The notes under the pieces were generated by a model. The model worked only from the letters and a program-made list of their open reading frames with translations. It had not been told where the DNA came from and did not search any database. DNA of 32,910 nucleotides from SAR324 cluster bacterium (GTDB taxonomy: Bacteria; SAR324; NAC60-12): positions 1 to 32,910 of the forward strand of contig JADFZZ010000044.1 in NCBI GenBank assembly GCA_015232315.1, read 5' to 3'. A program made the translations under genes and the position numbers. Position 1 is the stretch's first letter; every line of letters starts with the position of its first letter. Positions 4,887-30,934 of this stretch are shown here, in pieces.

Positions 4887-5944
4887 AGCATGACGAAAAG
4901 GACCTGTCACGGGGCGAGATAATTATTTATCAGACGGATGACGGTCGGATTAAGCTGGATGTGCGGCTTGAGAAGGAGACGCTCTGGATGACCCAAAACG
5001 ACATGGCTCAGCTTTTCCAATGCTCTGCGGACAACATTTCACTCCACCTGAAAAACATCTATGAGGAAGGTGAACTCGACCCGACGGCAACTGCCGAGGA
5101 ATTCTCGGTAGTTCGTCAGGAAGGCGCCCGGCAGGTGCGGCGCATGCTGACCTTTTACAATCTGGATGTGGTGATTTCCGTGGGCTATCGGGTGAAGAGC
5201 CTGATTGCCACCCGGTTCCGCATCTGGGCGACGGAGCGGTTAAGAGAGTACATCGTCAAAGGCTTCACCATGGACGACGACCGGCTCAAACAAAGTGGAG
5301 GTGGCGGCTATTTTGATGAACTGCTGGCGCGTATCCGGGATATCCGCTCATCGGAAAAGGTCTTTTGGCGCAAGATACTGGACATCTATGCCACCAGCAT
5401 CGATTACGACCCGAAAACCGATGTTTCCCGCAATTTTTTCAAAGTGATCCAGAACAAGATGCATTGGGCGGCACACGGGCAAACCGCCGCCGAGGTGATC
5501 TTCAACCGGGCGGATGCTACTGAACCCCATATGGGCATGACCAACTGGGTTGGTTCATCTATCCGCAAAAGCGAGGCGGAGATTGCCAAGAACTACCTGA
5601 ACGCCGAAGAGCTGGATCTGCTGAACCGTATCGTTACGCTTTATCTCGATTTTGCCGAGTTGCAGGCGGTCCAGCACAAGGCCATGACGATGAGCGACTG
5701 GATCGGAAAACTGGACGACTTCCTGAAATTATCCGGTCGAGATGTCCTTACCCATGCCGGTAAAATCAGCCATGATGCGGCGTTGCAGAAAGCGCACGCA
5801 GAGTATGAAAAGTTTCACCTGATGCAGTTGGATGCGCCAACAGAAGTAGAAAAACACTTTATTGAAGCGGAGAAAGAGCTTAAACAAATTGAATCAGCCC
5901 GGAAATCGACTTCAGCCAAAGAGAAAAAGAGAGGGAGAAAATGA
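4883..5944 (+). CDS. rhuM: RhuM family protein
   Basis: This 353-residue protein belongs to the RhuM (virulence protein RhuM) family, which often travels with type I restriction operons but has no settled biochemical role. The N terminus has the family's typical stretch: GEIIIYQTDDG near residue 10, then LWMTQNDMAQLFQ near 34, resembling a DNA-binding helix-turn-helix, then YNLDVVISVGYRV near 91. The C terminus is Lys-rich and helical. It overlaps hsdS and hsdR by ATGA at both ends, so it is translationally coupled inside the operon. This suggests it regulates or assists the restriction complex, which is inference. No domain appears missing. Confidence 0.92.
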   Translation: MKHDEKDLSRGEIIIYQTDDGRIKLDVRLEKETLWMTQNDMAQLFQCSADNISLHLKNIYEEGELDPTATAEEFSVVRQEGARQVRRMLTFYNLDVVISVGYRVKSLIATRFRIWATERLREYIVKGFTMDDDRLKQSGGGGYFDELLARIRDIRSSEKVFWRKILDIYATSIDYDPKTDVSRNFFKVIQNKMHWAAHGQTAAEVIFNRADATEPHMGMTNWVGSSIRKSEAEIAKNYLNAEELDLLNRIVTLYLDFAELQAVQHKAMTMSDWIGKLDDFLKLSGRDVLTHAGKISHDAALQKAHAEYEKFHLMQLDAPTEVEKHFIEAEKELKQIESARKSTSAKEKKRGRK

Positions 5945-8900
5945 ATAAAACAACCTTGTCTGCGATTAAGCTCGATGAGCGCAACCATGTGGAAAAGCCG
6001 CTGCTCGATCAGCTATCCGGCCTTGGTTGGGAAATTATCGACCTGACGGATGAGAAGCAGACTCCGGCCCATACCTTCCGCGACAATTTCACCGAAGTGG
6101 TCATGCCGAAGGTCCTGCGGGAGCAGGTCAAGGTGATCAACCCCTGGCTGGAGGATGACCAGGTTGAAGAGGTCGCCAAGCAGTTGACGGCAAGTTTTCC
6201 AGGAACGGGGCTTATCGAGAACAATCAATACGCACTCCATTTGCTACTGGAAAACACCAGTGTCAGTGAAAACCGAAAAACAGGTGAGCAAAGCCCGACG
6301 GTGCGGTTTATCGACTTCAAGAACAAGGACAACAACCGGTTTATCGTGGTTTGTCAGTTTAAGGTCCGCATTCTCGGCACAGAGCATCATATCATCCCGG
6401 ACATCGTTCTGTTTGTGAACGGCTTGCCGGTGGTGCTGATCGAGTGCAAATCCCCCAAGGTCAAAGACGCCATACCCGAAGCCATCGACCAGATGTTGCG
6501 TTACAGCGAGCAGCGCGGGGCCAAAGGTGAAGGCAGTGCGCCGCTTTTCTATTTCAATCAGATCGTCATTGCCACTTGCCGCCAGGAAGCCAAGTTCGGG
6601 ACGATCACCACCCACAGCGAAAAACATTTTTACCGTTGGTCCGATCCCTACCCACGCACATTGAATGACCTCGACCACGGCTCGGGCAGTCCCAACGATC
6701 AGCAGCGCCTGGTGGCGGGCATGATGGACAAGGGCAATCTTCTCGACCTGATTCGCACCTTCACCCTGTTCTCCACCAATGACAAGGGGCAGACGATCAA
6801 GATTGTCGGCCGTTACCAGCAGTTCAGGGCGGTGAAACTGGCAGTTCAGCGCCTGCTCCAGGGGAAAAGCCCACGCGAACGCAGCGGCATTATCTGGCAC
6901 ACCCAGGGGTCGGGTAAGTCGCTCACCATGATGTTCATGGTGCGTGAGATGTATCGGCATGCGGCATTGTCCAACTGGAAGGTCGTGTTTGTGACTGACC
7001 GGACCCAACTGGAAGGCCAGCTCAATGAAACCAGTCGCAGTATAGGCTTTACGGTCAAGGTGGCGAACAGCATCAAAAAACTCAAGGAGCTGCTCAGCGC
7101 CGACACCTCGGATCTGGTGATGGCCATGATCCATAAGTTCCGCGAGGCGGACCTGACCGAAACCTTCCCGCAACTCAACGACAGCCCCAATATCCTGGTC
7201 ATGACGGACGAGGCCCACCGTTCACAGTACAAGATGCTGGGCGCGAACCTGGACAAAGGCATCCCGAACGCCGCGAAAATCGGCTACACCGGCACTCCCA
7301 TCGACAAGACTGAACGGGTCTTTGGCGACTACATCGATAAATACACTATGCGCCAGGCCATCGACGACGGGGTGACTCTGGAGATCGTTTACGAAGGCCG
7401 CACCCATAATGCGGAAGTACCCGATCAGGCAGGCATGGATCAGGCGTTTGCGGATATGTTCAGCGACTATAACCTGCAAGAGAGGCTGCAAATTCTCGGC
7501 TATGGTTCGCGAGACGCCTATCTTGAGGCTGAATCGACCATAGAAGCCAAGGCGAAGGACATGGTGGACCACTACCTTACCCATGTGTTCCCCAATGGCT
7601 ACAAAGCTCAGGTTGTGGCGACTTCAAGGGAAGCGGCGGTTCGGTACAAGAAATATATAGATGCCGCTTTAAAGGCGAAGATAGAGGATCTGCAAAAGGC
7701 TAACCCGGGCGGTCTGGACATTGAACAGCTTAAGAGGATGCAATCGGATGTCATCATTTCCGGTGGACATAACGATCTACCGCATTTGAAAGAGTATTCC
7801 GATAGTTCGAAACATGAGCGCAGTATCAAAAGCTTCAAACTGAGCTTTGGCGGCAAAGACGAAGGCGTTACCGGTGACATGGGCATCCTCATCGTCAACA
7901 ACATGCTCATTACCGGCTTTGACGCGCCCGTTGAGCAGGTCATGTACCTGGACAAGGTTATTACCGATCACAATCTTCTTCAGGCCATCGCCCGGGTTAA
8001 CCGTGTTGGCGGTGACACAAAAGACAAGGGCTTTGTCGTTGACTATGTCGGTGTAGGTCATCACCTGAAGAAAGCCATCGATGCCTATGACGAGCGGGAA
8101 CAAAAAGAAATCATCGATACGCTGAGCTTCCCGGAAGAAGAGCTCCGCGACCTCCAAAACAGCCATGCCGAAATTATGGGCCTGCTTCAAAAACATGGTC
8201 TGACGGACCTCACGGACCATGATGCGTTCTTTGATGTTTTTTATGACGAAGATTTGCGTTTTGATTATATGCAGGCCTTCAAGAACTTCACGAAATGCAT
8301 GAATCTGGTTTTTCCCGCTCGGCAGGCGTTGGATTTTATGAGCGACTACAATGCTCTTGCGGAAATCAATGTTCTGGCCGGAAAGCATTTCCGTGACGAA
8401 CGCTTAAGCATGAAAGGCATACCTCCAAAGCTTCGTGCGATTACTGACCAGTATCTGGAATCGAAGAATATCGATCAGAGAATTGAGCCGATTTCTATTC
8501 TTGATGAAGACTTTGAAAAAAACGTCGGCAAGCGTAACCGCAGCAAGACCAAGGCGGCGGAAGTGGAACACGCTATTCGCCATCACCTGGATGTTGAACT
8601 GGATGACGATCCGGATTTACAGGCCTCCTTCGCCAAGGCACTGGCGCAGATATTCCAGGATTTTCGAGATAATTGGAAAAAAATTTATGAAGAGCTGGAA
8701 AAATTGCGAGAGCGCATCAAGAGCGCCAGCAAGGAGCCGACCTATGGCCTCCACCGTAAGAAACAGATGCCGTTTTTCCGCAGTTTCAAACGAGAAATCT
8801 TTGGTTTGGCTGAAAATAATCCAGTGCAGTCAGGAATGGTTGCCGAGCCAAGCGCATCTTATGGTTTCAGTGAAGAGGAACAAATCTCCGTTCTCGTCGA

Positions 8901-9123
8901 TCTCACCCAGCAGGTTTTCCTGGTTGTTGAAAGGGAACTGAAGCTTGCCGGTTTCTGGGAGAGCATTCCTGCTCGCAACAAGCTCAAGGCCGATATCCAA
9001 GCGACACTTTTACAGCCTGCCTATACAAAGCTGCCGAACTTGCTTCAAAATCGCGCTCAGATCATCAGCCGGGTGATGGAAATAGCAGAAAAAAATAATG
9101 ATGTGATTCTTTACGCGGAGTAA
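5941..9123 (+). CDS. hsdR: Type I restriction endonuclease subunit HsdR
   Basis: HsdR is the ATP-driven translocase and nuclease that cleaves unmodified DNA. In order: an N-terminal PD-(D/E)xK nuclease with PDIVLFVNG and LIECKSPK (about 151-174), an SF2 helicase motor with Walker A GSGKS near 323, DEAH near 422, TGTP near 450, and the second RecA-like domain with ITGFDAP and ARVNR (about 657-688), then a helical C-terminal region. At 1060 residues it has the normal full length, and every key residue I checked is present, so the enzyme looks functional. It overlaps rhuM by ATGA and is followed after 2 nt by the metalloprotease gene. Confidence 0.97.
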   Translation: MNKTTLSAIKLDERNHVEKPLLDQLSGLGWEIIDLTDEKQTPAHTFRDNFTEVVMPKVLREQVKVINPWLEDDQVEEVAKQLTASFPGTGLIENNQYALHLLLENTSVSENRKTGEQSPTVRFIDFKNKDNNRFIVVCQFKVRILGTEHHIIPDIVLFVNGLPVVLIECKSPKVKDAIPEAIDQMLRYSEQRGAKGEGSAPLFYFNQIVIATCRQEAKFGTITTHSEKHFYRWSDPYPRTLNDLDHGSGSPNDQQRLVAGMMDKGNLLDLIRTFTLFSTNDKGQTIKIVGRYQQFRAVKLAVQRLLQGKSPRERSGIIWHTQGSGKSLTMMFMVREMYRHAALSNWKVVFVTDRTQLEGQLNETSRSIGFTVKVANSIKKLKELLSADTSDLVMAMIHKFREADLTETFPQLNDSPNILVMTDEAHRSQYKMLGANLDKGIPNAAKIGYTGTPIDKTERVFGDYIDKYTMRQAIDDGVTLEIVYEGRTHNAEVPDQAGMDQAFADMFSDYNLQERLQILGYGSRDAYLEAESTIEAKAKDMVDHYLTHVFPNGYKAQVVATSREAAVRYKKYIDAALKAKIEDLQKANPGGLDIEQLKRMQSDVIISGGHNDLPHLKEYSDSSKHERSIKSFKLSFGGKDEGVTGDMGILIVNNMLITGFDAPVEQVMYLDKVITDHNLLQAIARVNRVGGDTKDKGFVVDYVGVGHHLKKAIDAYDEREQKEIIDTLSFPEEELRDLQNSHAEIMGLLQKHGLTDLTDHDAFFDVFYDEDLRFDYMQAFKNFTKCMNLVFPARQALDFMSDYNALAEINVLAGKHFRDERLSMKGIPPKLRAITDQYLESKNIDQRIEPISILDEDFEKNVGKRNRSKTKAAEVEHAIRHHLDVELDDDPDLQASFAKALAQIFQDFRDNWKKIYEELEKLRERIKSASKEPTYGLHRKKQMPFFRSFKREIFGLAENNPVQSGMVAEPSASYGFSEEEQISVLVDLTQQVFLVVERELKLAGFWESIPARNKLKADIQATLLQPAYTKLPNLLQNRAQIISRVMEIAEKNNDVILYAE

Positions 9124-9125
9124 GC

Positions 9126-9806
9126 ATGGAGCTGGTCTATACCATCAAGCGGTCGCCTCACCGTAAAAAGCTGACGATTACCGTCGAACGGGATCGCAGT
9201 GTGGTTGTCCATGCGCCGGAATCCACTTCCGAGGAGAAGATTCAGGCTATCATCGAATCAAGACGGAAATGGATTTATGAAAAGACCAAACATGCGCAAA
9301 AATACGCATTACCTCATCCTCCAGGCAAAGAGCTGGTCAACGGCGAATCCGCACTCTACCTGGGCCGTCAATATCAGATCGAAGTAGTCCAAAACAGATC
9401 GGAAGAGATTCGTTTCGAACAACGTTTCCTGATCCCTGCGAGGCTTTCTGCTGAGCGCAAGCAGGTCCTGCGAAATTGGTACATGGACAAGGCCAGGGAA
9501 AAAATCCTGCCCCGGACCAAAAAGTTTGCCAATGATCTCGGAGTGGCATTCACCAATGCCAAGATCGTTGATAATCGCTATCGCTGGGGTTCCTGTACGA
9601 TCAATGACAACATTACTATCAACTGGCGACTCATTAAGGCACCGATGTATGTCGTGGATTACGTGATCATCCACGAACTAACTCACCTATTGGAAGCGAA
9701 CCACACACCTCGGTTTTGGAATATCGTTCGAGCGCAGTCCTCGAAAATGGACAAGGCAAAGCAATGGCTACTCGAAAATGGCCAGATCCTTGAGGAGGAT
9801 ATTTGA
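9126..9806 (+). CDS. YgjP-like (M48-type) metallopeptidase
   Basis: The 226-residue protein has the YgjP/SprT-like layout: a beta-rich N terminus starting LVYTIKRSPHRKKLTI, a middle region ending YRWGSC, and the zinc motif HELTHLLEANHTPRFW near residue 182, where HExxH supplies two His ligands and the catalytic Glu. Members of this family are commonly encoded just after hsdR, but their substrate in that setting is unknown. It starts 2 nt after the hsdR stop with GGAG just upstream, so it is the last gene of the operon. It ends 13 nt before the attC, leaving no room for another gene in the cassette. Confidence 0.9.
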   Translation: MELVYTIKRSPHRKKLTITVERDRSVVVHAPESTSEEKIQAIIESRRKWIYEKTKHAQKYALPHPPGKELVNGESALYLGRQYQIEVVQNRSEEIRFEQRFLIPARLSAERKQVLRNWYMDKAREKILPRTKKFANDLGVAFTNAKIVDNRYRWGSCTINDNITINWRLIKAPMYVVDYVIIHELTHLLEANHTPRFWNIVRAQSSKMDKAKQWLLENGQILEEDI

Positions 9807-10543: not shown

Positions 10544-10662
10544 TTCGCTTAACGTTCTATTGGTGTCTTGAATCAATATTGCCTGTCATAACCCATGAAT
10601 GACTCTCCCCTGTTGAAACTCCCCAACACGTACCGTGCTTTTTTTGGCGCGTTTCCGTCCTT
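10544..10662 (+). repeat. 119-bp direct repeat, copy 1 (helicase leader and start)
   Basis: This matches 14611-14729 at 118 of 119 positions; the difference is C at 10648 against A at 14715. It covers 51 nt before the helicase ATG and the first 22 or so codons. To the left the copies differ (transposase scrap here, a hairpin after an attC there). To the right they differ because copy 2 has lost the helicase domain. Together with the 184-bp repeat it shows the region was duplicated in tandem. Confidence 0.93.
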
Positions 10663-11629
10663 GACCTCTGTTCAGCAGAAGGCGATTGATCCGGTGCTGG
10701 CAGGACGCGATGTGATTCTTCAGGCATCGACCGGCAGTGGCAAAACTGAAGCGGCGCTGGCGCCTGTGCTGGAACGGTTGCTCCAGTCAGCTACGCCTTA
10801 CACCGTCATTTATGTGATTCCCACCCGTGCCCTGGCGATGGACCTGGAGCGCCGTCTGGGCAATCTGCTCAAAGACCGGCTGAAGCTGAAACTTGGCCTC
10901 CGCACCGGTGATGTCAAACGTGGTGGTGACAACATCCATGTACTGCTGACCACGCCTGAATCGCTGGATGTGATGATCGGCAGTCCACGCAAGGAAAATC
11001 AGGAGTTTTTGCGCCGGGTACAAACCCTCATTCTGGATGATGTGCATCCCCTGTTGCATGTTTGCCGTGGGGAGCAACTGCGCTATCTGATACGCCGACT
11101 TGAACGCAAACTGCCGCACCCCCTGCAGAAAATAGCACTGTCTGCCACCATCGAAGATGTCCGGGATGTCATGGAGTTCTGGTATTTCCGTCAGGACACG
11201 GTCTGTATTTCCAGTTCTGTTCAGCGTGAATTACTGCCGCACCTGATCTATCTCAAGGAAGAAGAGGAACTGGTTTTTCTGGTAAACGATCTGTACGAAC
11301 GCTGGAATTATCGAAAAATCCTGATCTTCGCCAACAACCGTGGACGCTGTGACCGGTTGTTGGGATTGCTCAACCGGCAAGGCCGTTTCAAGGACGTCAC
11401 GGAATTGCATTATTCGAACCTGAACAGCGCAGAACGTCACAAGGTGGAACAGCGATTCCGGGAGCGGGATCATGCGTTGTGTGTGGCCACCAGCACACTG
11501 GAACTGGGCATCGATATCGGTGACGTGGATGGCGTGTTGTTGTTTGAGCCGCCAGATTCAGTTTCGGCTTTTTTGCAGAGGGTGGGACGGGCCAACCGCC
11601 GGGAACAACAGATCCATAACCGTGGATGA
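10595..11629 (+). CDS. SF2 (DEAD/Lhr-like) helicase, 5' fragment of a larger gene
   Basis: The 344 residues contain a whole SF2 helicase core: Q-motif region FPSLTSVQQKAI near 25, Walker A ASTGSGKTEA near 43, DDVH in place of DEVH near 147, SAT near 182, TSTLELGIDIGDVDG near 300 and arginine-finger QRVGRANRRE near 329. The frame then stops after QQIHNRG, where DNA matching a distant part of the sister gene (15249-15275) appears. Lhr-type helicases carry a winged-helix and a beta domain after this point, and those are preserved only in the frame at 14781. I read this as the N-terminal piece of the ancestral helicase-nuclease-helicase. No strong ribosome binding site precedes the ATG. It could still make a stand-alone helicase core. 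Confidence 0.85.
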   Translation: MNDSPLLKLPNTYRAFFGAFPSLTSVQQKAIDPVLAGRDVILQASTGSGKTEAALAPVLERLLQSATPYTVIYVIPTRALAMDLERRLGNLLKDRLKLKLGLRTGDVKRGGDNIHVLLTTPESLDVMIGSPRKENQEFLRRVQTLILDDVHPLLHVCRGEQLRYLIRRLERKLPHPLQKIALSATIEDVRDVMEFWYFRQDTVCISSSVQRELLPHLIYLKEEEELVFLVNDLYERWNYRKILIFANNRGRCDRLLGLLNRQGRFKDVTELHYSNLNSAERHKVEQRFRERDHALCVATSTLELGIDIGDVDGVLLFEPPDSVSAFLQRVGRANRREQQIHNRG

Positions 11630-11639
11630 CCGTGAATTG
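11613..11639 (+). repeat. 27-bp patch matching 15249-15275
   Basis: The sequence TCCATAACCG followed by TGGATGACCGTGAATTG matches 15249-15275 in the large helicase/nuclease frame at 26 of 27 positions, with the last 22 bases identical. It sits exactly where the helicase fragment loses its reading frame, and unrelated AT-rich DNA follows. It is in a different reading frame from the sister copy. It probably marks a deletion junction or a template switch during repair. Confidence 0.75.
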
Positions 11640-11786
11640 TATGGTTTTGTATTTTTTCAAATACTGTTCTACGCGAATGACATACCATCTTGTTTTTTTT
11701 GCAGGGAGTGTTTGTTGATTCAGAATGGATAACTACTGCTCCCATAATTTAGCATCTCTATTCATTTTTATCCTTGAACTACAGTT
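11640..11786. other. Gene-free AT-rich spacer between helicase fragment and attI-like copy 2
   Basis: No convincing gene or RNA is visible in this 147-bp piece. It contains T-runs near 11653 and 11692. If the region arose by tandem duplication it may represent DNA that normally lies to the left of the attI-like repeat, meaning beyond the left end of this window. I see no integrase-coding remnant in any frame. Together with the repeat and the cassette D leader, the stretch without a complete gene runs from 11630 to 12003. Confidence 0.6.
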
Positions 11787-11970
11787 TTTGATCTGTTAAT
11801 GATTGATTCAATCGAGAATCAATGCCAGTTAAGAATTACCTGATCTGGCACAAATGATCATCCTGGTTTCGATAAAAAGAAAATATAAAGATAGATGGGA
11901 ATGTGAAATATAGCGATAGACAGAAACTGTTTATTCCAATATGATCTATTTCTGTCTAATTCACTGTTGG
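11787..11970 (+). repeat. attI-like region, copy 2 of the 184-bp direct repeat
   Basis: This is identical to 1-184 except at the positions corresponding to 128 (A to C) and 145 (C to T). The second change weakens the palindrome present in copy 1. It ends at core site GTTGGCT (11966-11972), which begins cassette D. Having two such sites 11.8 kb apart on the same strand means one cassette array follows each. Confidence 0.7.
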
Positions 11971-12927
11971 CTTAATATTATTCAGATATAGAGCAAAATC
12001 ATTATGATAAACCTCAATTATTCATCACCAGTAAACAAATTACTCACATACGGGGATGCCAGTCATTATAGAAAAGAATGGCCTGATTATGTAGCATTAG
12101 GATTGAATGAAACACACATTGATGAATTAATCCGAATGATGAATGATGAAGATTTAATAGGAGCTTCGGCAAAGAGTTTAGAGGTATGGGGGCCTATTCA
12201 CGCATGGCGTACTTTGGCACAACTTCAATCACCAATGGCATTAGAATCATTACTGAATCAGTTACAACGGATAGATGATGATGACGATGATTGGATTAAT
12301 GAAGAGTTTCCTTATGTCTTCACAATGTTAGGGCCTTGTGCCATCAGTCCATTAGTTTCTTATTTGAAAGATCCCCAAAACAGGTTATTTGCCAGAGTAT
12401 GTGCCGCACGAAGTCTGGAATGTATTGGTAATAAATATAGTGAAAGTAGAAAATCCTGTGTCAATGGCATCACGGGATTGCTAGGCAACTTCGACAAGAA
12501 TGACCCAATTCTAAACGCTTTTTTGATCTGTTCTTTAGCAGATCTAAACGCAGTAGAATCTCTTGAGGTGATTCAGCACGCATATCAACATAACGCAGTG
12601 GATATTAGTATTTTAGGAGATCTGGAGGACGCTGAAATAAAATTGGGAATTAGAGAAAAAAGAGAAACCCCTCCTCCCAAATATCATTCATTTACATTTG
12701 ATCCACCTCCTCCCAAAGCCAATAATGTTAGTAGGAATGATCCATGTCCATGTGGAAGTGGAAAGAAATATAAAAAATGTTGTATGAACAAATGAATATC
12801 ATTTAACAAAGGCCAACAAGTCGGCGCAGTGGATTGCCGGGGTGCTGTTTTGCCAAAGATTTCAGTAGATTTTTCAGTTTTTATCTTATTCAAAGTAAAT
12901 GATCCCCGTCAACCACTGACCTCAGCG
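11967..12927 (+). mobile_element. Integron gene cassette D
   Basis: The cassette begins at TTGGCT of core GTTGGCT and ends within the attC at 12811-12933. The attC left core GGCCAAC pairs with GTTGGCT with one G-T wobble. It carries one forward gene in about 961 bp. It is AT-rich like cassettes A and E and unlike cassette B. Confidence 0.78.
12004..12795 (+). CDS. Cassette D protein with C-terminal SEC-C zinc motif, probable HEAT-like repeats
   Basis: The 263-residue protein has a helical body, with segments such as AWRTLAQLQSPMALESLLNQL and ARVCAARSLECIGNKYSE that look like HEAT-type repeats, an acidic run DDDDDD near residue 94, a proline-rich linker, and a C-terminal SEC-C motif RNDPCPCGSGKKYKKCC. 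SEC-C is the zinc-binding tail first known from SecA and occurs on many unrelated proteins as an interaction module. The molecular role here is unknown. ATG 12004 is the first start in the cassette, 38 nt after the core site; I see no strong ribosome binding site. Confidence 0.85.
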   Translation: MINLNYSSPVNKLLTYGDASHYRKEWPDYVALGLNETHIDELIRMMNDEDLIGASAKSLEVWGPIHAWRTLAQLQSPMALESLLNQLQRIDDDDDDWINEEFPYVFTMLGPCAISPLVSYLKDPQNRLFARVCAARSLECIGNKYSESRKSCVNGITGLLGNFDKNDPILNAFLICSLADLNAVESLEVIQHAYQHNAVDISILGDLEDAEIKLGIREKRETPPPKYHSFTFDPPPPKANNVSRNDPCPCGSGKKYKKCCMNK

Positions 12928-12933
12928 TTGGAC
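12811..12933 (+). other. attC recombination site of cassette D
   Basis: The left half reads GGCCAACAAG at 12811 followed by CAGTGG; the right half reads CCACTGACCTCAGC followed by core GTTGGAC (12927-12933). CAGTGG and CCACTG pair exactly. The middle, about 85 nt, is less clearly symmetrical, giving a long attC of 123 bp. Its right core opens cassette E. Confidence 0.78.
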
Positions 12934-13039
12934 TCACATGAACCACATTAAACCCGGAAATTGAGTCAGGGATTGGTTTTTACCTCAATCATAGTATGCT
13001 GGGAACAAGAGGCTGATTACTACACTTATCAGGAGGTAT

Positions 13040-13246
13040 ATGGAAACCATAGAATTTGAAACTATTGCTCAGAATGGCACTATCGCCATTCCTGAACAAT
13101 ATCGGGATCTTTTTCCTGAAACCATTCGATTGCTAGTGCATATTGAACCTCTGGTGAAGAATCAGAATATGAGCATCCCGTTTAAGGCAATCAGGATTTC
13201 CACCAGAAAATTCAAATTCAATCGGGAAGAAGCTAATGAACGGTAA
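13040..13246 (+). CDS. Probable antitoxin of a PIN toxin pair
   Basis: The 68-residue protein begins IEFETIAQNGTIAIPEQYRD, resembling the short beta-hairpin start (DGTIxIPxxY) of small antitoxins paired with PIN ribonucleases, possibly AbrB-like. The C-terminal part, ending FKFNREEANER, would be the toxin-wrapping tail. It would neutralise the downstream toxin and probably repress the operon through its N terminus. ATG 13040 has AGGAGG about 7 nt upstream. The last codons overlap the toxin start by 11 nt, the usual coupling in such modules. Confidence 0.72.
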   Translation: METIEFETIAQNGTIAIPEQYRDLFPETIRLLVHIEPLVKNQNMSIPFKAIRISTRKFKFNREEANER

Positions 13247-13646
13247 GGCCTTTTTTGATACGAATATTATTCTGTATTTATATTCAGAAGATGAACCAGA
13301 GAAACAGAGAGCCAGCATAAAAATTGCCACTACCTATCTCTTTCCCACCATTAGCACCCAAGTCATTAATGAACTTACCAACATTCTCTTTCGTAAAATG
13401 CAGGTAAAATGGGATATCATTGAAGAGGTGATTACCGAGGTTGAACAAGCATTTACCATTGAAGTTGTGACTATTTCAGTGATCAGGATGGCCTGTAACA
13501 TCGCTAAACGTTATCAGTATTCCTATTACGATAGTGTCATTATTGCCTCAGCCCTTTCATGTGGTTGTACACTCCTGATAAGTGAAGATATGCAGCATGG
13601 GCAAATTATAGAAAATCAGTTGCGGATTATGAATCCGTTCATATAG
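13236..13646 (+). CDS. PIN-domain toxin (probable ribonuclease)
   Basis: The 136-residue protein is a complete PIN domain: FFDTNIILYL gives the first acidic residue (near 8), STQVINELTNIL the conserved Glu (near 45), YYDSVIIASA the third acid (near 99) and LLISEDMQHG the fourth (near 117). PIN toxins of VapC type cut tRNA or other RNA using a metal centre; the target here is unknown. It overlaps the antitoxin gene. Its stop lies about 30 nt before the attC of the cassette, a tight fit typical of cassette genes. Confidence 0.88.
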   Translation: MNGKAFFDTNIILYLYSEDEPEKQRASIKIATTYLFPTISTQVINELTNILFRKMQVKWDIIEEVITEVEQAFTIEVVTISVIRMACNIAKRYQYSYYDSVIIASALSCGCTLLISEDMQHGQIIENQLRIMNPFI

Positions 13647-14157
13647 TCTCATAAAGAATATCAGCAAAAACTGGTCCAATCGGGTAGAGGGAAGCTTTTC
13701 TCTTCCCCCTCCCACACCACCCTGCATGCGGGTCTCGCACAGGGCGGTTCATCGAAGTGGAGCAAGCAATATCCAGAGGTTTTTTGAGAGAAACAAGACC
13801 TTGATGGGCTAACCAGAGATTGGTCATGCCCGATTGGGTCGCCAACGTTTTGGATAAACGCCAGTACCCCTTGGAACTACGTCCTGTCGAAACCGCATGT
13901 TTGCGGTTTGTTCCCAGTTTGAGTAGAGTTCGTATTCGAGTTTTGGGACGTTTCCACTGTTTCCAGTAGCACATCCGCACCCGTCTGCGAATCCAGTTAT
14001 CCAACCCGGGAATGGGACGATAGTAATCGGACAAACCAAAGTAGTTGATCCAGCCTCTGAGGTAGGTGGAGAGTTCCGCAATGACCTGTTCCATCGAGAC
14101 GCCTCGGGAGCGAGACGTAATTTGGCGTACTCGCTCCCTCTCATTTACCCGATCCCG
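13639..14157 (-). pseudogene. Group II intron maturase (reverse transcriptase) remnant, C-terminal part only
   Basis: The minus-strand frame reads VRQITSRSRGVSMEQVIAEL, then YLRGWINYF, LDNWIRRRVRMCYWKQWK and SSKGYWRLS. This is the group II intron maturase X domain and the end of the thumb. The reverse transcriptase fingers and palm, with the YADD motif, are missing: a stop at 14158-14160 lies just before, and intron domain I-like DNA follows at once. The frame continues through domains V and VI into the exon and stops at 13639, so the last 40 or so codons are not maturase. An intact enzyme would be around 420 residues, so this fragment cannot support mobility. Confidence 0.85.
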
Positions 14158-14455
14158 TTAGCCACAAGGTTTCATGATCTTGTGCTCACTCACCTTGGGG
14201 AAGTTGGCCTGACATGAGGTTTCTGTACGTCGGCTCGTCGCTTTGCCCAGGCTTCCTTCAGACATTCCCTCACGAGTTTGCCCTTGCCATCGGCTAGAAG
14301 TTTATGGCATACGTCCTGTTAGGAAGAGGTTTGTTTTCTCGGTTTGCCGCCTGGTTTCCCGGCGGTGCCACACTATTTCTTCCATGAGAAATGGTGCCAG
14401 TGGCTACTCTTCAGGGGACTTTCACCCCATTAATTCACGCCCATGCCGGGCGTAC
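13679..14455 (-). mobile_element. Degenerate group IIC-attC intron
   Basis: The intron lies on the minus strand. Its 5' end is near 14455 (GTACGCCCGGCATGGGCGTG, then GGGGTGAAAGTCCCC of domain I at about 14435-14421) and its 3' end near 13679 (CTACCCGAT). Removing it rejoins the attC of cassette E exactly, with target 5'-CCTTGT/TGGAC on the bottom strand, the TTGT/T attC target known for this intron class. About 780 bp remain where roughly 1.9 kb is expected; the missing part is the first two thirds of the maturase gene. The 5' boundary is uncertain by about 2 nt, because introns of this class usually begin GTGYG. It could still splice if a maturase acts in trans. Confidence 0.82.
13716..13750 (-). 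ncRNA. Group II intron domain V
   Basis: Read on the minus strand the element is GAACCGCCCTGTGCG, then AGACC, then CGCATGCAGGGTGGT: a long stem with the two-base bulge and tetraloop-like end of domain V, the catalytic core of the ribozyme. Domain VI follows, GGGAGGGGGAAGAGAA pairing loosely with TTCCCTCTACCC, and leads to the 3' splice site. Both look complete although the maturase gene is deleted. Confidence 0.8.
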
Positions 14456-14572
14456 ACAAGGCATTCAACCGGACAGCTAACCGCGGTTTTGGTCATGGAT
14501 TTTGATATTTTCCCGGTCGGCGTTTTCTCCATGCCCGGTGTCGTTAGCCGCCGGTTAATTCGGTCGTTTCGC
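14456..14572 (+). other. attC site of cassette E, right part (left core at 13674-13678)
   Basis: After the intron the site continues ACAAGGCATTCAACCGGAC and ends CCGGTTAATTCGGTCGTT. Inner pairs are TCAACCGG (14465-14472) with CCGGTTAA (14551-14558), differing at one pair, and GCTAAC (14476-14481) with GTTAGC (14543-14548). The rejoined site is about 122 bp. The right core GTTTCGC is poor, consistent with the site now facing non-cassette DNA. Confidence 0.82.
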
Positions 14573-14607
14573 GAAAACTCACTCCGTCATATGGTCCGTG
14601 AGTTTTC
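14573..14607. other. Hairpin between attC of cassette E and the second helicase leader
   Basis: A perfect 10-bp inverted repeat, GAAAACTCAC (14573-14582) and GTGAGTTTTC (14598-14607), encloses a 15-nt loop. There is no T-tract, so it is not an obvious intrinsic terminator. It starts within a base of the attC end and stops 3 nt before the 119-bp repeat, so it fills the whole gap between the array and the host-side gene. Its role is unknown; it could be the end of another small element. Confidence 0.6.
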
Positions 14608-14610
14608 TGC

Positions 14611-14729
14611 TTCGCTTAACGTTCTATTGGTGTCTTGAATCAATATTGCCTGTCATAACCCATGAATGACTCTCCCCTGTTGAAACTCCCCAACACGTAC
14701 CGTGCTTTTTTTGGAGCGTTTCCGTCCTT
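14611..14729 (+). repeat. 119-bp direct repeat, copy 2 (helicase leader and start)
   Basis: This copy of 10544-10662 contains the helicase start ATG at 14662 and its first 22 or so codons. The next base begins DNA from the middle of the ancestral gene (WGICRGERAGAQ in the downstream frame). The junction is out of frame: the ATG-14662 frame is shifted by 2 nt relative to the long frame and stops at 14853. The deletion removed the whole SF2 helicase domain that copy 1 retains. Confidence 0.93.
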
Positions 14730-14780
14730 TGCTGGGGCATCTGCCGTGGTGAACGGGCTGGCGCGCAACTGCTCAAATTC

Positions 14781-17700
14781 ATGGGACTCCTGCACCTTGC
14801 CCGGCAGGGAACACTGGAAGCCGCCTGGTTCAGGCCTTTACCCAGTGTGTTGATTCAGCAGATTCTTTCCTGTCTGTATGAAAAAAAGCAGATCACCCTG
14901 CCTTCGCTCATCAATCTGTTTCCCGAACAAGCTTCGACTTTGGAACAACTGGTTTTCAACATGCAATCCCAAGGCTGGTTCCGCGCCCCCAAAACTAGCA
15001 AACTTCAGGGCTTGATGCTGTCCCCTGCCTGGCGTTACCGGGATTTTTTTCTGGAACGAAAAATCTGGAGCAACTTTCCTGAAGCCGAAGAAGAATACAG
15101 TCTGGAACTGTCACAGGAAGCACTCGCCGATTTACCATTATCGCTGGTAAAGCAACTCAAACCGGGAGATCGGGTGCAACTGGCCGGAAAATATCTGCAA
15201 ATCATGGAAATTGACCATGGCGAACACAAACGGGTCCAGGCGCAACCGTCCAAAACCGTGGATGACCGTGAATTGATCTGGCTGGGCACAGGAATGAGAG
15301 GCTCGTGGGAAGTGGCTCAGGCCATCCATGAGTTGTTCCAGACTGTGGATATTCCAGAGTTTTCCAAACGGTTCGGACTGTTTGATCGCACCCGGAGTTT
15401 GCTACAAACAGAACTGGAGCGTTATCAAAAGGTTGTCACGCTGGCAAACGGGATTCAGGTCAACCGGACCCGTGAAGGATTCTGGCGTTACTGGACGTTT
15501 CTGGGAGCACTAGGAAACCTGATTCTTCAGTGGGTTGTGGAACACCATCCGCCGTTTCAGGAGCTGGAAAATTTTTCTGTCACTTCCGATGAATTGGGGG
15601 TGACATGCTCGCATGAAGTGGATTTTGGAAAATTGAAACTGCCGCTGGATCGTGACCAGTTACGAATCTGGGTTCAACAGCATGAATCCGGTTTACGCAA
15701 TCTGTTCGCGCTCAACGAATACTGGCAATTCTTACCCGGTGAATTTCAATTGTCAGAATTGTGTGGCTTTGTCACCGATGACCGCTTGCTGACCGCATAC
15801 CGTAATTATCACGACATGGGTTCCGACATTGTGAAAGGTGAGGCTTCATGGCTGGAATTCAACAGCAGTTCAACCATATCCCAACCTCCGCAGGAAACGC
15901 CTCACTGGCCGGTCGCGGAAAATCTGCTTGAAACGGAACGGGAACGCTGGCGGAAACAGCTTGCTGACTTAGCCGGTCATCAGAGCGCAGTCGCCCAACC
16001 CGCAACACCCGATCAATCAGGCGTTCTGACAATCACCGGAACCTTGCTCAGCGAGTACCTGCGACATCAGCAATGTCAACTCTGGCTGGACTGGAATTTC
16101 CGGAAAATCGCTGATGCCGATGCGCCATTTTCAGCGGATTCCTTACAAGAGTGGCGGCTGGAACAGGGACAACTCCATGAAGCGAAAACGCTGGGCTGGC
16201 TGGAAGAACATCACCCCGGATCATTGCTGGAAATGCCTGACACCGGGGACCAGCGACGTTTATCTCTGCAACAACGATTTACTTTATTCTGGAACGTGTT
16301 GAAACAGATGGAAACCGGCGGAGAGGAACCGGTGCCACGATATATCGCTCATCCGGTTTTGCGGTTTGCACAAGAGGAACATCTGGAATGGATCGGCATT
16401 CCGGATCTGCTGAGAATTTCTCGAAGCGAAAACCAGTATCTGCTGGAAATCGGTGACATCAAACACAGCCGGCAACCGCATTATGGGCACAAATGGCAAA
16501 TAGCGTTTTATGCGCACGTCCTGCGAAAATTGCTGATTCATGCCAACTTTCAGCATATTCAGGTGGCCAACACAGGATTTTTGCTCACACGCCCTCCCAA
16601 AAATCAGGCAGAACCTGTGGAACATTTGGTGGATCTGATACCCTATTTGGCGACCATGCCTGTTTTGCTGAGAAACATGACGGAGTTGGCGAACCATTCG
16701 CCATCCACCGCACAATATTTCATGCAACCCCATTGTGATTCGTGCCCGTTCTTTACGCGATGTTATGCTGAAGCACTCACCAGTCACGAAATCCAGTTCC
16801 TTCCGGGAATGAGCCCGGGTGTGGCCGCCATGCTTCAGCAACAACAGATTCAGCGGTTTCATCAATTCAAAACGTTTCTGGAGCAATCAGAGGCGTTGTT
16901 CAGCCCTCAAAAACAGCGGTTCAGCAATCCACTGGTCGCCATGACCGAACAGCAAATTCGCTTGAAGCAGTCTGTCACCCGACAGTTTCCGGGCAATCTG
17001 GATTTTGCCATCTTTGTTCATCTCAGTCAGCATCCATCGCTGGATCACCCGCTATGTCTGGGTTGGAAAGTCTGGAATGTGTCGCACTCTGCCGAACAGC
17101 ATTCCCCGGTGTTTGAGCAAAACTGGATTCTCACCAGTCTTGAGGAATGGAATTCCCTCTGGAATACGTTTTCAGCAGACTTTTCGAGACTGTGGCACAC
17201 CATACTCCAGGCCAACCGGATTCCGCATGTCTTTTATTTCAACGCTTCGGTTTGGCAGGGACTTCAAACCTTCAAGTGTGGCAACGATCTGGATTATCTG
17301 TGGCATTCCCTGATTCCGAGCCACACGGATCTGCAAAGTCTGTTGCGTCAGCACTTTGACTGGCCTGTTCCCGGAACCTTATCACTGAGTTCCTTGCAAC
17401 GGATTCTGGGTTGGCCTTCAACGCTCCAGTCGTTCAATACCGATTCGCATCTGTTTCAGGAAACCCCCATCCCCCGTTTACTGCTGGAATATCTTCTTTC
17501 AGGTCAAATTTCCGGGCAGAAACATGAGCCGATGGAAGCGTCTCATCCGTTGAAACAGGCAGAGCAATGGCTGGAAACAATTTTAGTGCTGGAACTGGAT
17601 TTATGGAAATGGCTCACAACCCGGATTAAAAGCCAATGGTATCCTGCCAGTGAGGAACTTCCGGGAGCGCAAACTGAATCCCTGTCCCGCAATTTCCGGA

Positions 17701-19544
17701 ATTTTGTGGAACGTGAAAAACAGGAACGGGAGGATGCTGTTCTGAATCTGCAACAGCGTCCGTTGCCTGAACGGGTTGAGTTGTTCAGGGCCGCGGGTCC
17801 CTTGCACTGGAAAGAAACAACGCTGGATGATGAAGGACGGTTTCTCTATTGTTTTCAGGCACCTGAAAATCAGGTTTCCTCAAAATTCCGGGAAGGCGAT
17901 TTCCTCAAACTCCCTGCGTTGGGTATCGCTGATTTACAGGAAGGATGGCCCGTGATTCTGATGCGTCATGATCCGGTACGAGGTGAATTCTGGTTGCGCT
18001 CCCGGCAGGGGAAACTCATGGTCCATGCACAAGCCCGCTATTCGTTGGATGAAGATATCACCGACTGGAATTCCGCCAAGTTGATTCACGCCATTGAAAC
18101 TGTCTTTGAAACCCGTTCTCACCGGCCTTTGAAACAATTGCTCGAAGGTCATGTTTCGGGACATCCACCCCGGGAAGTTCTGAATTGGGTAGAACAATGG
18201 CTAAAGGAATGGAATGGATTGGCCCGCTTGAATTCCACTCAACAAACCGCGTTGAAACTGCCCTTCACCCGAAACCTGTCCTTGATCGAAGGTCCTCCCG
18301 GTACCGGAAAAACCCATTTACTGGGCTGGATTTTGATTGCCCTCATACAGCAGGCGCAAGCTTGCCGACAACCCTTGCGGATCGTTGTCAGCGCCCTCAC
18401 CCATCAGGCCATTGATCAGGTGCTGGAAAAAGTGGTATCGCTGGTTCAACGGCATGGGTTGCCAAATTTTCCGGCCAAAATTTATAAATGGGGCCGCATG
18501 GATTCTGCTGAAGAGGAACCACCAGCATGGCGCGTTCAGCCCTTGAGCGGCAAGGCGGAATTGGAGGCGGAACCCTATGTAATACTGGGCGCGACAGGCT
18601 TTGGCCTGTATCAGTTGTTTGGGAGTCAGTCTGGCGAGTTTCCCGGATTTTTTGACTGGGTGGTGTTTGATGAAGCGTCACAAATGTTGTTGCCGCAGGC
18701 GTTGCTCGCATTGCTTTATGGCCGGGAGCAATTCTTGTTTGTGGGTGACACACGGCAATTGCCGCCCATTATTCTTGGAAACTATAAAAGCGCGTCTTCC
18801 GCCATGTTTCCGGCAAAATCCATTCTGGCGCATCTGCTGGAACGGTATCCGGATCAAGCGCATGTCAGACTGAACCTGACCTACCGCATGAATGACGTGA
18901 TTTGTGAATTTCCCAGCCGACTCTGGTATGAGGGCGAATTGCGACCAGACGTTGGTAATGCGAGGAGTCGTCTGAGCTTGAAATCGGGTGACTTTGATGA
19001 ACTGGAAAGGTTGCTGGACCCTGAACATCCCGTCACGCTGGTGTTGATGGATCATCAGAATTGTGTCCAGACTTCGGTTCAAGAAGCAGAACTGGTGTCT
19101 AAACTGGCCCGGCGTCTGTTGTCTCGCCACCAGAAACAACCGGAAGATATCGCGATCATTTCTCCGCACCGTGCCCAGAATAATTCCATCCGACAGATGT
19201 TACAGAAAATGATGGATCGTTTGCCTGAAAATTTACCTGTCATTGACACGGTGGAACGCATGCAGGGCGCTGAACGGGACATCATTCTCTTTTCGCTCAC
19301 GGCCTCGGATCCGGATTCGCTGGAAAGTCCGTTTCTCAATGATCCAAATCGACTGAATGTCGTATTGACTCGTGCTCGTCACAAACTGGTGATGATCGGC
19401 AGTGTGGCGTTTTTCAGGCATATTCCCTCCACCGAAGACGCCTTGCGGTCGCATGCCTGTTTCAAGCAGTTTCTGGATTATTGCACCGGGCGGAATTCCG
19501 TATTTTACCTCAACTCGGAAAACAGCCTTGAGGCAGGATCGTGA
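14781..19544 (+). CDS. Lhr-like segment + Cas4/RecB-like nuclease + UPF1/DNA2-type SF1 helicase, 5'-truncated
   Basis: The frame has 1587 codons. Residues 1-200 resemble the winged-helix and beta part of Lhr helicases (GLLHLARQGTLEAAW, GDRVQLAGKYLQIMEID, LIWLGTG). About 425-665 is a RecB/Cas4-type nuclease: Cys near 434, GIPDLL near 541, EIGDIKHS near 556 and a trio CDSCPFFTRC near 652-661, giving the one-plus-three cysteine pattern of a 4Fe-4S cluster. About 1140-1580 is an SF1 helicase: GPPGTGKTH near 1170, DEAS near 1295, GDTRQLPP near 1321, TYRMND, ERMQGAERD and NVVLTRARHK. The same frame continues upstream of the ATG (WGICRGERAG), so the true N terminus is lost, and no good ribosome binding site precedes ATG 14781. 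The uninterrupted length suggests recent damage or retained use. A DNA-defence role is inferred from the domains. Confidence 0.85.
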   Translation: MGLLHLARQGTLEAAWFRPLPSVLIQQILSCLYEKKQITLPSLINLFPEQASTLEQLVFNMQSQGWFRAPKTSKLQGLMLSPAWRYRDFFLERKIWSNFPEAEEEYSLELSQEALADLPLSLVKQLKPGDRVQLAGKYLQIMEIDHGEHKRVQAQPSKTVDDRELIWLGTGMRGSWEVAQAIHELFQTVDIPEFSKRFGLFDRTRSLLQTELERYQKVVTLANGIQVNRTREGFWRYWTFLGALGNLILQWVVEHHPPFQELENFSVTSDELGVTCSHEVDFGKLKLPLDRDQLRIWVQQHESGLRNLFALNEYWQFLPGEFQLSELCGFVTDDRLLTAYRNYHDMGSDIVKGEASWLEFNSSSTISQPPQETPHWPVAENLLETERERWRKQLADLAGHQSAVAQPATPDQSGVLTITGTLLSEYLRHQQCQLWLDWNFRKIADADAPFSADSLQEWRLEQGQLHEAKTLGWLEEHHPGSLLEMPDTGDQRRLSLQQRFTLFWNVLKQMETGGEEPVPRYIAHPVLRFAQEEHLEWIGIPDLLRISRSENQYLLEIGDIKHSRQPHYGHKWQIAFYAHVLRKLLIHANFQHIQVANTGFLLTRPPKNQAEPVEHLVDLIPYLATMPVLLRNMTELANHSPSTAQYFMQPHCDSCPFFTRCYAEALTSHEIQFLPGMSPGVAAMLQQQQIQRFHQFKTFLEQSEALFSPQKQRFSNPLVAMTEQQIRLKQSVTRQFPGNLDFAIFVHLSQHPSLDHPLCLGWKVWNVSHSAEQHSPVFEQNWILTSLEEWNSLWNTFSADFSRLWHTILQANRIPHVFYFNASVWQGLQTFKCGNDLDYLWHSLIPSHTDLQSLLRQHFDWPVPGTLSLSSLQRILGWPSTLQSFNTDSHLFQETPIPRLLLEYLLSGQISGQKHEPMEASHPLKQAEQWLETILVLELDLWKWLTTRIKSQWYPASEELPGAQTESLSRNFRNFVEREKQEREDAVLNLQQRPLPERVELFRAAGPLHWKETTLDDEGRFLYCFQAPENQVSSKFREGDFLKLPALGIADLQEGWPVILMRHDPVRGEFWLRSRQGKLMVHAQARYSLDEDITDWNSAKLIHAIETVFETRSHRPLKQLLEGHVSGHPPREVLNWVEQWLKEWNGLARLNSTQQTALKLPFTRNLSLIEGPPGTGKTHLLGWILIALIQQAQACRQPLRIVVSALTHQAIDQVLEKVVSLVQRHGLPNFPAKIYKWGRMDSAEEEPPAWRVQPLSGKAELEAEPYVILGATGFGLYQLFGSQSGEFPGFFDWVVFDEASQMLLPQALLALLYGREQFLFVGDTRQLPPIILGNYKSASSAMFPAKSILAHLLERYPDQAHVRLNLTYRMNDVICEFPSRLWYEGELRPDVGNARSRLSLKSGDFDELERLLDPEHPVTLVLMDHQNCVQTSVQEAELVSKLARRLLSRHQKQPEDIAIISPHRAQNNSIRQMLQKMMDRLPENLPVIDTVERMQGAERDIILFSLTASDPDSLESPFLNDPNRLNVVLTRARHKLVMIGSVAFFRHIPSTEDALRSHACFKQFLDYCTGRNSVFYLNSENSLEAGS

Positions 19545-28306: not shown

Positions 28307-28382
28307 GCTGGTATAGCTCAATTGGTAGAGCAGCTGATTTGTAATCAGCAGGTTGCGGGTTCAAGTCCCATTGCCAGCTCCA
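28307..28382 (+). tRNA. tRNA-Thr (anticodon TGT)
   Basis: A complete 76-nt cloverleaf: acceptor GCTGGTA with TGCCAGC, D-arm TAGCTCAATTGGTAGAGC, anticodon stem GCTGA/TCAGC with loop TTTGTAA, T-arm with GGTTCAAGTCC, and encoded CCA. It reads ACA codons. It is the first gene of the cluster. Confidence 0.96.
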
Positions 28383-28394
28383 CGATTTCAGCGT

Positions 28395-28479
28395 GGGGAG
28401 ATACCCGAGTGGCCAAAGGGATCAGACTGTAAATCTGACGGCTCCGCCTTCGAAGGTTCGAATCCTTCTCTCCCCACCA
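28395..28479 (+). tRNA. tRNA-Tyr (anticodon GTA)
   Basis: An 85-nt class II tRNA with acceptor GGGGAGA/TCTCCCC, anticodon loop around CTGTAAA, a long variable arm (GGCTCCGCCTTCG region), T-loop GGTTCGAATCC and encoded CCA. It lies 12 nt after tRNA-Thr. Confidence 0.96.
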
Positions 28480-28499
28480 TTTTAATAACCCCCTGCGAT

Positions 28500-28574
28500 G
28501 CCTGGGTAGCTCAGTGGTAGAGCATTTCCTTGGTAAGGAAAAGGTCGGCAGTTCAATCCTGCTCCCAGGCTCCA
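28500..28574 (+). tRNA. tRNA-Thr (anticodon GGT)
   Basis: A 75-nt cloverleaf with acceptor GCCTGGG/CCCAGGC, anticodon stem TTTCC/GGAAA and loop TTGGTAA, T-arm with CAGTTCAATCCTG and encoded CCA. It reads ACC codons. In the classic arrangement tRNA-Gly lies before this gene and tuf after it; both are absent here. Confidence 0.95.
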
Positions 28575-28592
28575 GAACTATAGTGGTGATTC

Positions 28593-28742
28593 ATGCGGGA
28601 CACGATTCAATTGGAATGCACAGAGTGTAAACGGAAAAACTATACGGCTTCCCGTAACAAGCGCACTAAAACCAGCCGGATGGAAATTAAGAAATATTGC
28701 CGCTGGGATCGTAAACACACGATCCATAAAGAAACCAAGTAA
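28593..28742 (+). CDS. rpmG: Ribosomal protein L33
   Basis: A 49-residue L33, a small 50S subunit protein near the E site. It begins [20 protein letters not shown] and ends [17 protein letters not shown]. The first zinc-ligand pair CTEC is present. The second pair has only its first Cys (YCRWD; the fourth ligand position is Asp), so zinc binding is probably lost or altered. It lies between tRNA-Thr and tRNA-Trp, upstream of secE, a common place for rpmG in bacteria. Confidence 0.95.
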
Positions 28743-28810
28743 ATCCGGTTTTGAGGTCTTTGAGGGAAACAGGTGTTCACCCGTTACAACTCCTCTCTTA
28801 GTGAAAGTGT

Positions 28811-28887
28811 AGGCCAGTAGCTCTAACTGGTAGAGCGTCGGATTCCAAATCCGAGGGTTGCGGGTTCGAATCCTGCCTGGCCTGCCA
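28811..28887 (+). tRNA. tRNA-Trp (anticodon CCA)
   Basis: Acceptor AGGCCAG/CTGGCCT, anticodon stem CGGAT/ATCCG with loop TCCAAA around CCA, T-arm GCGGGTTCGAATCCTGC, discriminator G and encoded CCA. It reads UGG and stands just before secE, its usual position. Confidence 0.95.
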
Positions 28888-28985
28888 TCTCCTCATAAAA
28901 TTCGTGATCTGAAATCAAAACATGGTGTCATCGCAGGGACAAAAAGTCTGCTTCCTGTCTATGTTTTTCTATCAACAGGTAAGAT

Positions 28986-29171
28986 ATGTTTAGTAAGTTC
29001 AAGCAGTTTTTGGATGATATTCGAGCAGAATTTAAAAAAGTTCATTGGCCAGACCGTGATGAAACCATCAAGGCAACATCCATTGTTTTGGCTCTTTCCC
29101 TGATCGTCGCCGTATTTCTGGGCGTTGCGGACTTGGGTTTGTCTTCAATCATGAAGATGATTATTTCCTGA
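28986..29171 (+). CDS. secE: Preprotein translocase subunit SecE
   Basis: A 61-residue single-span SecE, part of the SecYEG channel in the inner membrane. It has the conserved amphipathic stretch FLDDIRAEFKKVHWPDRDET followed by one transmembrane helix (IVLALSLIVAVFLGVADL). The length is that of the short, one-helix form. It is followed after 7 nt by nusG. Confidence 0.95.
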   Translation: MFSKFKQFLDDIRAEFKKVHWPDRDETIKATSIVLALSLIVAVFLGVADLGLSSIMKMIIS

Positions 29172-29178
29172 AGGAATT

Positions 29179-29730: not shown

Positions 29731-29751
29731 TTCACATTGTAAGAGGCTACT

Positions 29752-30177
29752 ATGGCAAAAGAGATTACCGCATTCATTAAATTACAAGTACCCGCAGGCA
29801 AAGCTAATCCATCTCCACCCATTGGGCCGGCTCTTGGTCAACATGGTGTGAATATCATGGAATTCTGCAAAAGTTTTAACGCTAAAACCCAAGGCATGGA
29901 CACCATTGTTCCGGTAGTGATTTCTGTTTATTCCGACCGGTCATTTACGTTTATCATGAAAACGCCTCCGGCTGCGGAACTGATCAAGAAAACGCTCAAA
30001 CTGGATAAAGGCTCAGCAACCCCTAATACGGCAAAAGTCGGTACTCTTTCACAGAGTCAACTGGAAGAAATCGCCAAGATCAAAATGCCGGATCTCAATT
30101 GCTATGACATTGAAGCCGCAAAAAAAATTGTGGCTGGTGCCGCGCAAAGTATGGGCGTGGAAATCGCCGGCAACTGA
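29752..30177 (+). CDS. rplK: Ribosomal protein L11
   Basis: A 141-residue L11 that binds 23S rRNA in the GTPase-associated centre. Typical stretches are [20 protein letters not shown] at the start, [16 protein letters not shown] in the middle and the C-terminal [10 protein letters not shown]. It lies 21 nt after nusG, with AGAGG before the ATG, and rplA follows in the standard order. Confidence 0.97.
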
Positions 30178-30232
30178 CCGGTATTGTTCAATCAATAAAC
30201 CACAACTATGTGGGAGGCAACCAGGAGTATTT

Positions 30233-30922: not shown

Positions 30923-30934
30923 TTAAGTATTGTG

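Follow-up and report, generated by a model that had tools for sequence, protein, structure and literature searches.

A helicase-nuclease-helicase protein family from SAR324 and other bacteria, encoded in an operon that looks like an undescribed variant of known anti-phage machines

The interrupted gene in the window

The window (i.e., the whole 32,910-nucleotide stretch analyzed, from a marine SAR324 bacterium) carries a 1,587-amino-acid ORF without internal stops at positions 14781 to 19544 of the forward strand. This frame represents the C-terminal 80% of a protein, here called D, whose SF2 helicase head lies 3 kb upstream (10595 to 11629). The features of the locus are as follows.

10544 to 10662, + strand: first copy of a 119-bp repeat (51 bp upstream of D and the first D codons)
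10595 to 11629, + strand: D fragment 1, SF2 (BrxHI/Lhr-like) helicase head, breaking off after codon ~340; motifs I at 10730, II (as DDVH) at 11033, III at 11141, V at 11486, and VI at 11576
11616 to 14610, no strand assigned: foreign sequence interrupting D, which carries the remnant of a group II intron (13679 to 14279, - strand) as well as a SEC-C/DUF1186 ORF and a gene for a PIN toxin
12004 to 12795: SEC-C/DUF1186 ORF within the insert
13236 to 13646: PIN toxin gene within the insert
13676 to 14479, - strand: degraded group II intron, of which just the C-terminal part of the maturase is left
14611 to 14729, + strand: second 119-bp copy (leader and D start), out of frame with the D remainder to which it is joined
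14733 to 15815, + strand: D fragment 2, comprising by homology the winged helix, barrel, and C-terminal domain with which the BrxHI/Lhr-like unit ends
15936 to 16877, + strand: PD-(D/E)XK nuclease of the TM0106/Cas4/Dna2 type; first cysteine at 16074, GIPD at 16395, GDIK at 16446, QxxxY at 16488, and second to fourth cysteines within 16731 to 16766
16878 to 18203, + strand: helical region, RNase H-like fold without D-x-E, then a Dna2/IGHMBP2-like barrel leading into the SF1 motor
18204 to 19544, + strand: SF1 helicase of the UPF1/Dna2 type; Walker A at 18291, DEAS at 18660, GDTRQLPP at 18744, and motif VI at 19347

Since the reading frame of the long ORF is already open from 14670, the ATG at 14781 is merely the first in-frame ATG, and it corresponds to an internal residue in intact homologs. 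The D head ends with "...QRVGRANRREQQIH" and the D remainder begins with "WGICRGE..."; these residues are nearly adjacent in the intact homologs, so the two pieces in the window are one gene split by approximately 3 kb. The divergence of the remainder at the three codon positions (0.447/0.324/0.661) follows the pattern of a coding gene. Judged by this pattern and by end-to-end alignment, the resemblance of the window frame to its homologs is far beyond chance. The original prediction had also placed a matching SF2 domain with the same leader and start at 10595. The two 119-bp copies (10544 to 10662 and 14611 to 14729; 99% identical) bear this out, the leader ATG of the second copy being out of frame with the D remainder. 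For this reason, a role of the repeat in rejoining or phase variation of the D halves was ruled out.

Directly upstream of the D fragments are the genes of a type I restriction operon (HsdM-HsdS-RhuM-HsdR) and, behind them, one for a YgjP-type metallopeptidase (958 to 9806). At the other end of the window, a housekeeping block (28307 to 32148) contains genes for tRNA-Thr, tRNA-Tyr, tRNA-Thr, and tRNA-Trp and then for NusG, L11, L1, L10, and L7/L12. Pieces related to the group II intron are found elsewhere in the genome. A 184-bp direct repeat (1 to 184 and 11787 to 11970; 99% identity) forms the beginning of the window contig, and the last 137 bp (32774 to 32910) recur with 97% identity where contig C72 of the same genome ends.

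The split, the out-of-frame second start, and the unusual DDVH motif suggest that the window copy of D is dead or dying, and it is probably inactive. Even so, its long frame is free of stops and diverges in the pattern of a coding gene. It is also possible, if hardly the first choice, that the split is an assembly artifact and that D is intact in this genome, a reading that is compatible with the function proposed below. A 97-bp relative of the 119-bp repeat at the very end of contig C19 and the repeats that bound the window contig make an assembly error conceivable. Moreover, the apparent split of D in another SAR324 genome (G010) proved to be a contig edge, with an exact overlap of 91 bp, poly-A, and a continuation that looks foreign, and was therefore rejected as an independent, real break. 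However, neither junction in the window (11615/11616 and 14729/14730) falls within a repeat of a length that could in itself lead an assembler astray, and the insert has genes of its own. The conclusions on the family as a whole are independent of the window copy.

Intact homologs and domain anatomy of D

Among the relatives of the window's genome, D is intact as a single 1,950-aa ORF in SAR324 genome G004, where it is 45 to 59% identical to the two window pieces. When GTDB species genomes were scanned with the aligned D remainder, which is devoid of the SF2 motor domains, 12 true relatives emerged in SAR324, Latescibacterota, Desulfobacterales, Chlamydiota, Legionellales, a metagenome-assembled genome (MAG) labeled Gemmatimonadota, and an unplaced bacterium. 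Eight homologs are full length (1,781 to 2,001 aa) and have all parts in identical order, and the D homologs align end to end (33 to 63% identity). Intact copies come from MAGs assigned to SAR324, Latescibacterota, Gemmatimonadota, Desulfobacterales, and Chlamydiota. The intact homologs confirm the ancestor of approximately 2,000 residues envisaged in the original prediction, with SF2 and SF1 motors flanking an Fe-S nuclease. Homologs consistently lacking the SF2 head would have argued against it; instead, although the query was headless, the head was found in every relative whose contig extends far enough upstream, and the fusion is therefore the normal state. In one locus (L031), the head is in two overlapping frames, and in another (L029), the contig sequence ends before the head. 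The Legionellales copy (L032:1941-6950), which is cut by the contig end, shares 67% identity over 1,662 residues with the Chlamydiota copy (L026:8978-14323), a cross-phylum similarity that suggests transfer or mis-binning. Searches of viral contigs with D and with the operon gene A (see below) gave no relatives. Phage records yielded an SF1-helicase match only, and plasmid searches with the window protein yielded no full-length D and mostly SF1-region matches, including TM0106-type proteins.

D begins at its N terminus with a BrxHI/Lhr-like SF2 helicase. A nuclease of the Cas4/TM0106 type with four cysteines comes next, and a degenerate RNase H-like fold separates it from the C-terminal SF1 helicase, which is Dna2/UPF1-like. 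The window head (10595 to 11629) matches DEAD (6e-35), Helicase_C (2e-18), and BrxHI (7.8e-69), and residues 2 to 297 of the 1,587-aa frame match positions 364 to 647 of the 698-position PADLOC BrxHI model (2.3e-12). Residues 23 to 688 of D match almost the whole BrxHI profile (4.4e-81). All D copies retain SF2 motifs I, Ia, III, V, and VI, and motif II is DExH everywhere except in the window.

The nuclease has the PD-(D/E)XK motifs and four cysteines that characterize the TM0106/Cas4/Dna2 type, and the corresponding residues of the 1,587-aa frame match PDDEXK_1 (490 to 661; 3e-6) and the TM0106 RecB-like nuclease model TIGR03491 (521 to 878; 7.4e-11). The cysteines, which are putative Fe-S ligands, are encoded at 16074 to 16076 (in RHQQC) and inside 16731 to 16766 (HCDSCPFFTRCY), and they are retained in all 10 of the homologous sequences that span the nuclease. 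Two nuclease motifs are each lost in a single copy: GxPD in L030, which reads GIPS, and D-x-K in L032, which reads DIQ. An AlphaFold2 model of the region from the nuclease to the barrel (mean pLDDT, 78) matches Dna2 and IGHMBP2 and then MGME1; matches to RNase H-like exonuclease folds are weaker. The strand expected to carry D-x-E reads roughly "xFxHxxxDP" (judged by eye), so the RNase H-like fold of D is probably not catalytic.

The SF1 part (residues 1150 to 1541 of the 1,587-aa frame) matches AAA_11 and AAA_12 (7e-22 and 2e-35, respectively), and its best solved relatives are Dna2 and UPF1. Motifs I to VI of the UPF1/Dna2 type are present and kept across the D copies, and the catalytic motifs of both helicases are nearly invariant. 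These domain matches confirm that the 1,587-codon frame combines an Lhr-like segment, a four-cysteine nuclease, and an SF1 helicase, as had been predicted from the window.

The A-B-C-D operon, its sister form, and known systems

D is the fourth and last gene of an operon, after A (~280 aa), B, and C. Eight loci (L021, G010, L025, L026, L027, L028, L030, and L031) have a complete A-B-C set immediately before D, and L024 and L032 have a partial one, as far as their contigs reach; L023 has a different short ORF upstream of D. The original prediction, which did not include the operon, needs refinement in that D is no stand-alone system. B and C are BrxD-type AAA+ ATPases (PF10923 BrxC/BrxD; 1e-60 for B and 2e-25 for C) in which Walker A is kept. 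Protein A is conserved but has no family match in Pfam, NCBIfam, or PADLOC, and its confident structural model (pLDDT, 88.6) has no PDB or viral fold match at an E value of ≤0.001. In independent searches, A and D were found in exactly the same 3 of the 52 sampled genomes of the SAR324 phylum (the window's genome included), a coincidence expected once in 22,100 for two random sets of three. In the window's genome, A-B-C is on contig C72, which ends after one further ORF of 150 aa.

In Latescibacterota and SAR324, the fused version is surrounded by ordinary genes rather than by a dense defense island. SAR324 genome G010 encodes a TIR-domain protein (L022:9705-10886) at a distance of ~6 kb on the downstream side of D, with a weak CopG-antitoxin match nearer to D (4539 to 4892). 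In the Gemmatimonadota-labeled MAG, a gene for an AAA-ATPase_like and PDDEXK_9 protein (L028:9506-11062) adjoins D.

We also identified sister loci in which A-B-C accompanies a 700-aa BrxHI-like helicase without the nuclease or SF1 part. They occur on plasmid 3 of Aulosira laxa, on Desulfomonile plasmid pDESTI.01, and in 2 of 291 genomes of another phylum; gene A was absent from two smaller phylum samples (0 of 77 and 0 of 17 genomes). The Aulosira operon is located ~170 bp downstream of a type 2 BREX operon (BrxC-PglX-PglZ-BrxD-BrxHI). The other sister loci adjoin AbiE genes (Desulfomonile), a type ISP/IIG enzyme gene (G089), and a PDC-S68 gene with a PemK toxin gene (G314). In the motor-domain tree, the D heads form a clade (100/99) nested in that of the A-B-C-associated helicases (100/99); genuine BrxHI and SngC fall outside, as does the Haloterrigena Lhr-like sequence (one long outgroup branch). 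The head was correctly predicted to be an SF2 helicase, but its place is in the BrxHI/SngC defense branch and not with housekeeping Lhr.

D is similar to two dyads, BrxD-BrxHI of BREX 2 and SngB-SngC of Shango, yet it appears to belong to neither system. BrxD and BrxHI form a tight dyad in which BrxD has been proposed to load BrxHI, and nuclease fusions to BREX helicases have been listed in the 2026 BREX survey (PMC12839542). The same survey describes the role of BrxD as uncharacterized and helicase loading as only suggested; a term search of it found no mention of UPF1, RecB, Dna2, or Shango. As in type 2 BREX, a BrxD-type ATPase is encoded beside a BrxHI helicase with a winged helix, a barrel, and an Lhr-type C-terminal domain (PMC12839542). 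However, A-B-C-D has two diverged BrxD-type ATPases (BREX has one) and gene A, its helicase is fused to a nuclease and an SF1 motor, and the operon is devoid of PglZ, PglX, BrxC, and PglW. No PglZ, PglX methyltransferase, or BrxC was found among the ORFs flanking the fused operons (assessed partly by family searches and otherwise by size or sequence). Neither B (150.6 bits) nor C (72.2 bits) reaches the NCBIfam BrxD cutoff of 350 bits.

Shango is a TerB-helicase-ATPase anti-phage system composed of the TerB protein SngA, the ATPase SngB, and the helicase SngC (PMC10250203). A-B-C-D has an ATPase-helicase pair that resembles that of Shango, the matches to SngC (4e-71) and SngB (3e-37) being significant but diverged and the D heads taking a separate position in the tree. 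The SngC profile scores 925 bits with genuine SngC, 259 bits with the Aulosira sister helicase, and 239 bits with D. The operon differs from Shango in having four genes rather than three, the added nuclease-SF1 fusion, and a gene A that is not TerB-like. The candidacy of A as a TerB-type SngA was rejected, given no PADLOC SngA match and a probability of 0.1% in a profile comparison with genuine SngA.

Other systems resemble parts of D. TM0106-type RecB-like nuclease-SF1 proteins and Dna2 likewise have a UPF1/Dna2-like SF1 motor behind a four-cysteine PD-(D/E)XK nuclease, but they have no SF2 head and no A-B-C partners. The SF1 part of D matches MkoA of Mokosh (1e-55), and one DpdJ model matches the SF1 part and another the SF2 part. 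The partners and order of MkoA and DpdJ are different, and the D nuclease between the motors is outside all of these matches. SngC, BrxHI, DruE, and DpdJ have been grouped as a possible clade of defense helicases in a study of Hachiman (PMC12278908). In RecBCD and AddAB, whose two motors feeding a nuclease are likened to D as a working idea only, the motors are both of SF1 and in separate subunits, whereas the single chain of D combines an SF2 with an SF1 motor. Within the open-access literature searched, we found no description of a fusion of a BrxHI-like helicase, a Cas4-type nuclease, and an SF1 motor, as had been anticipated for the SF2-headed fusion; this is no proof of novelty.

Proposed function of the operon

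The BrxD-type partners, the sporadic distribution, and the sister form beside BREX, restriction, and toxin-antitoxin genes make a defense role likely. By neighborhood, distribution, and family evidence, A-B-C-D is a candidate anti-phage system, and a confinement to housekeeping repair loci, which would have spoken against such a role, was not observed. We consider it reasonably probable that D is the effector of a four-gene defense operon, in which B and C together with A load D on invading DNA and the motors feed the nuclease. In this mechanism, the Orc1/Cdc6-like B and C, with A as an adaptor or sensor, would load D on the invading DNA. The Lhr-type and Dna2-type motors would then run along opposite strands and feed the iron-sulfur nuclease between them, so that D would shred DNA in the manner of RecBCD but as one polypeptide. 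Motors of the Lhr type run 3'-5', those of the Dna2 type 5'-3'. Given these opposite polarities, the two motors could move in the same direction along a duplex on opposite strands and feed the nuclease as in RecBCD. The motor polarity and the loading of D by the ATPases are transferred from the respective families. Points against this reading are the ordinary gene surroundings of the fused version in Latescibacterota and SAR324, the altered nuclease residues in L030 and L032, and the DDVH motif and split gene of the window. More tentatively, A-B-C-D may constitute a distinct defense class, i.e., a single-polypeptide RecBCD-like machine with SF2 and SF1 motors, loading by an Orc1/Cdc6-like ATPase pair, a new-fold protein A, and no DNA modification partner.

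Both motors and the nuclease have relatives in repair (Lhr and Dna2), and D could be a DNA repair or replication-fork enzyme, similar to Dna2 joined to Lhr, that A-B-C load at damaged host forks. The conservation of the genes flanking the fused operon among related Latescibacterota agrees with this. We nonetheless regard a repair function as unlikely because D is found in just 3 of the 52 SAR324-phylum genomes and patchily across phyla, its head is set apart from the Haloterrigena Lhr-like sequence and scores best with BrxHI/SngC profiles, its partners are BrxD-type ATPases, and the sister loci are in defense neighborhoods. Somewhat less probable still is an abortive system in which D, after phage sensing, degrades the host DNA and kills the cell instead of clearing the phage DNA. 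No methyltransferase is linked to A-B-C-D, and the lack of a linked modification enzyme to protect self DNA would fit such a system. Hachiman, in which a helicase sensor holds back an effector nuclease, provides a helicase-nuclease precedent (PMC12278908). However, two motors flanking a nuclease are suited to the processive clearance of ends or forks, and nothing in these data shows toxicity.

The view of A-B-C-D as a BREX accessory or a diverged form of Shango, and not as a system of its own, seems to us quite improbable. The kinship of B and C with BrxD and SngB, that of the head with BrxHI and SngC, and the sister operon directly behind a type 2 BREX operon speak for it. On the other hand, no PglZ, PglX, or BrxC is adjacent to the fused operons examined, A is unlike SngA, and B scores 151 bits against the 350-bit BrxD cutoff.

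The D operon looks like a so far undescribed version of a family of anti-phage machines that is already known. The A-B-C module carries no name in the defense-finding library searched; it is an unrecognized module common to fused and unfused helicases, in one case beside a BREX operon. With a nuclease and a second motor fused to the BrxHI-like helicase and the ATPase partners kept, the ATPase-helicase dyad is predicted to deliver the helicase to DNA that is marked for destruction, an idea that is directly testable with one operon.
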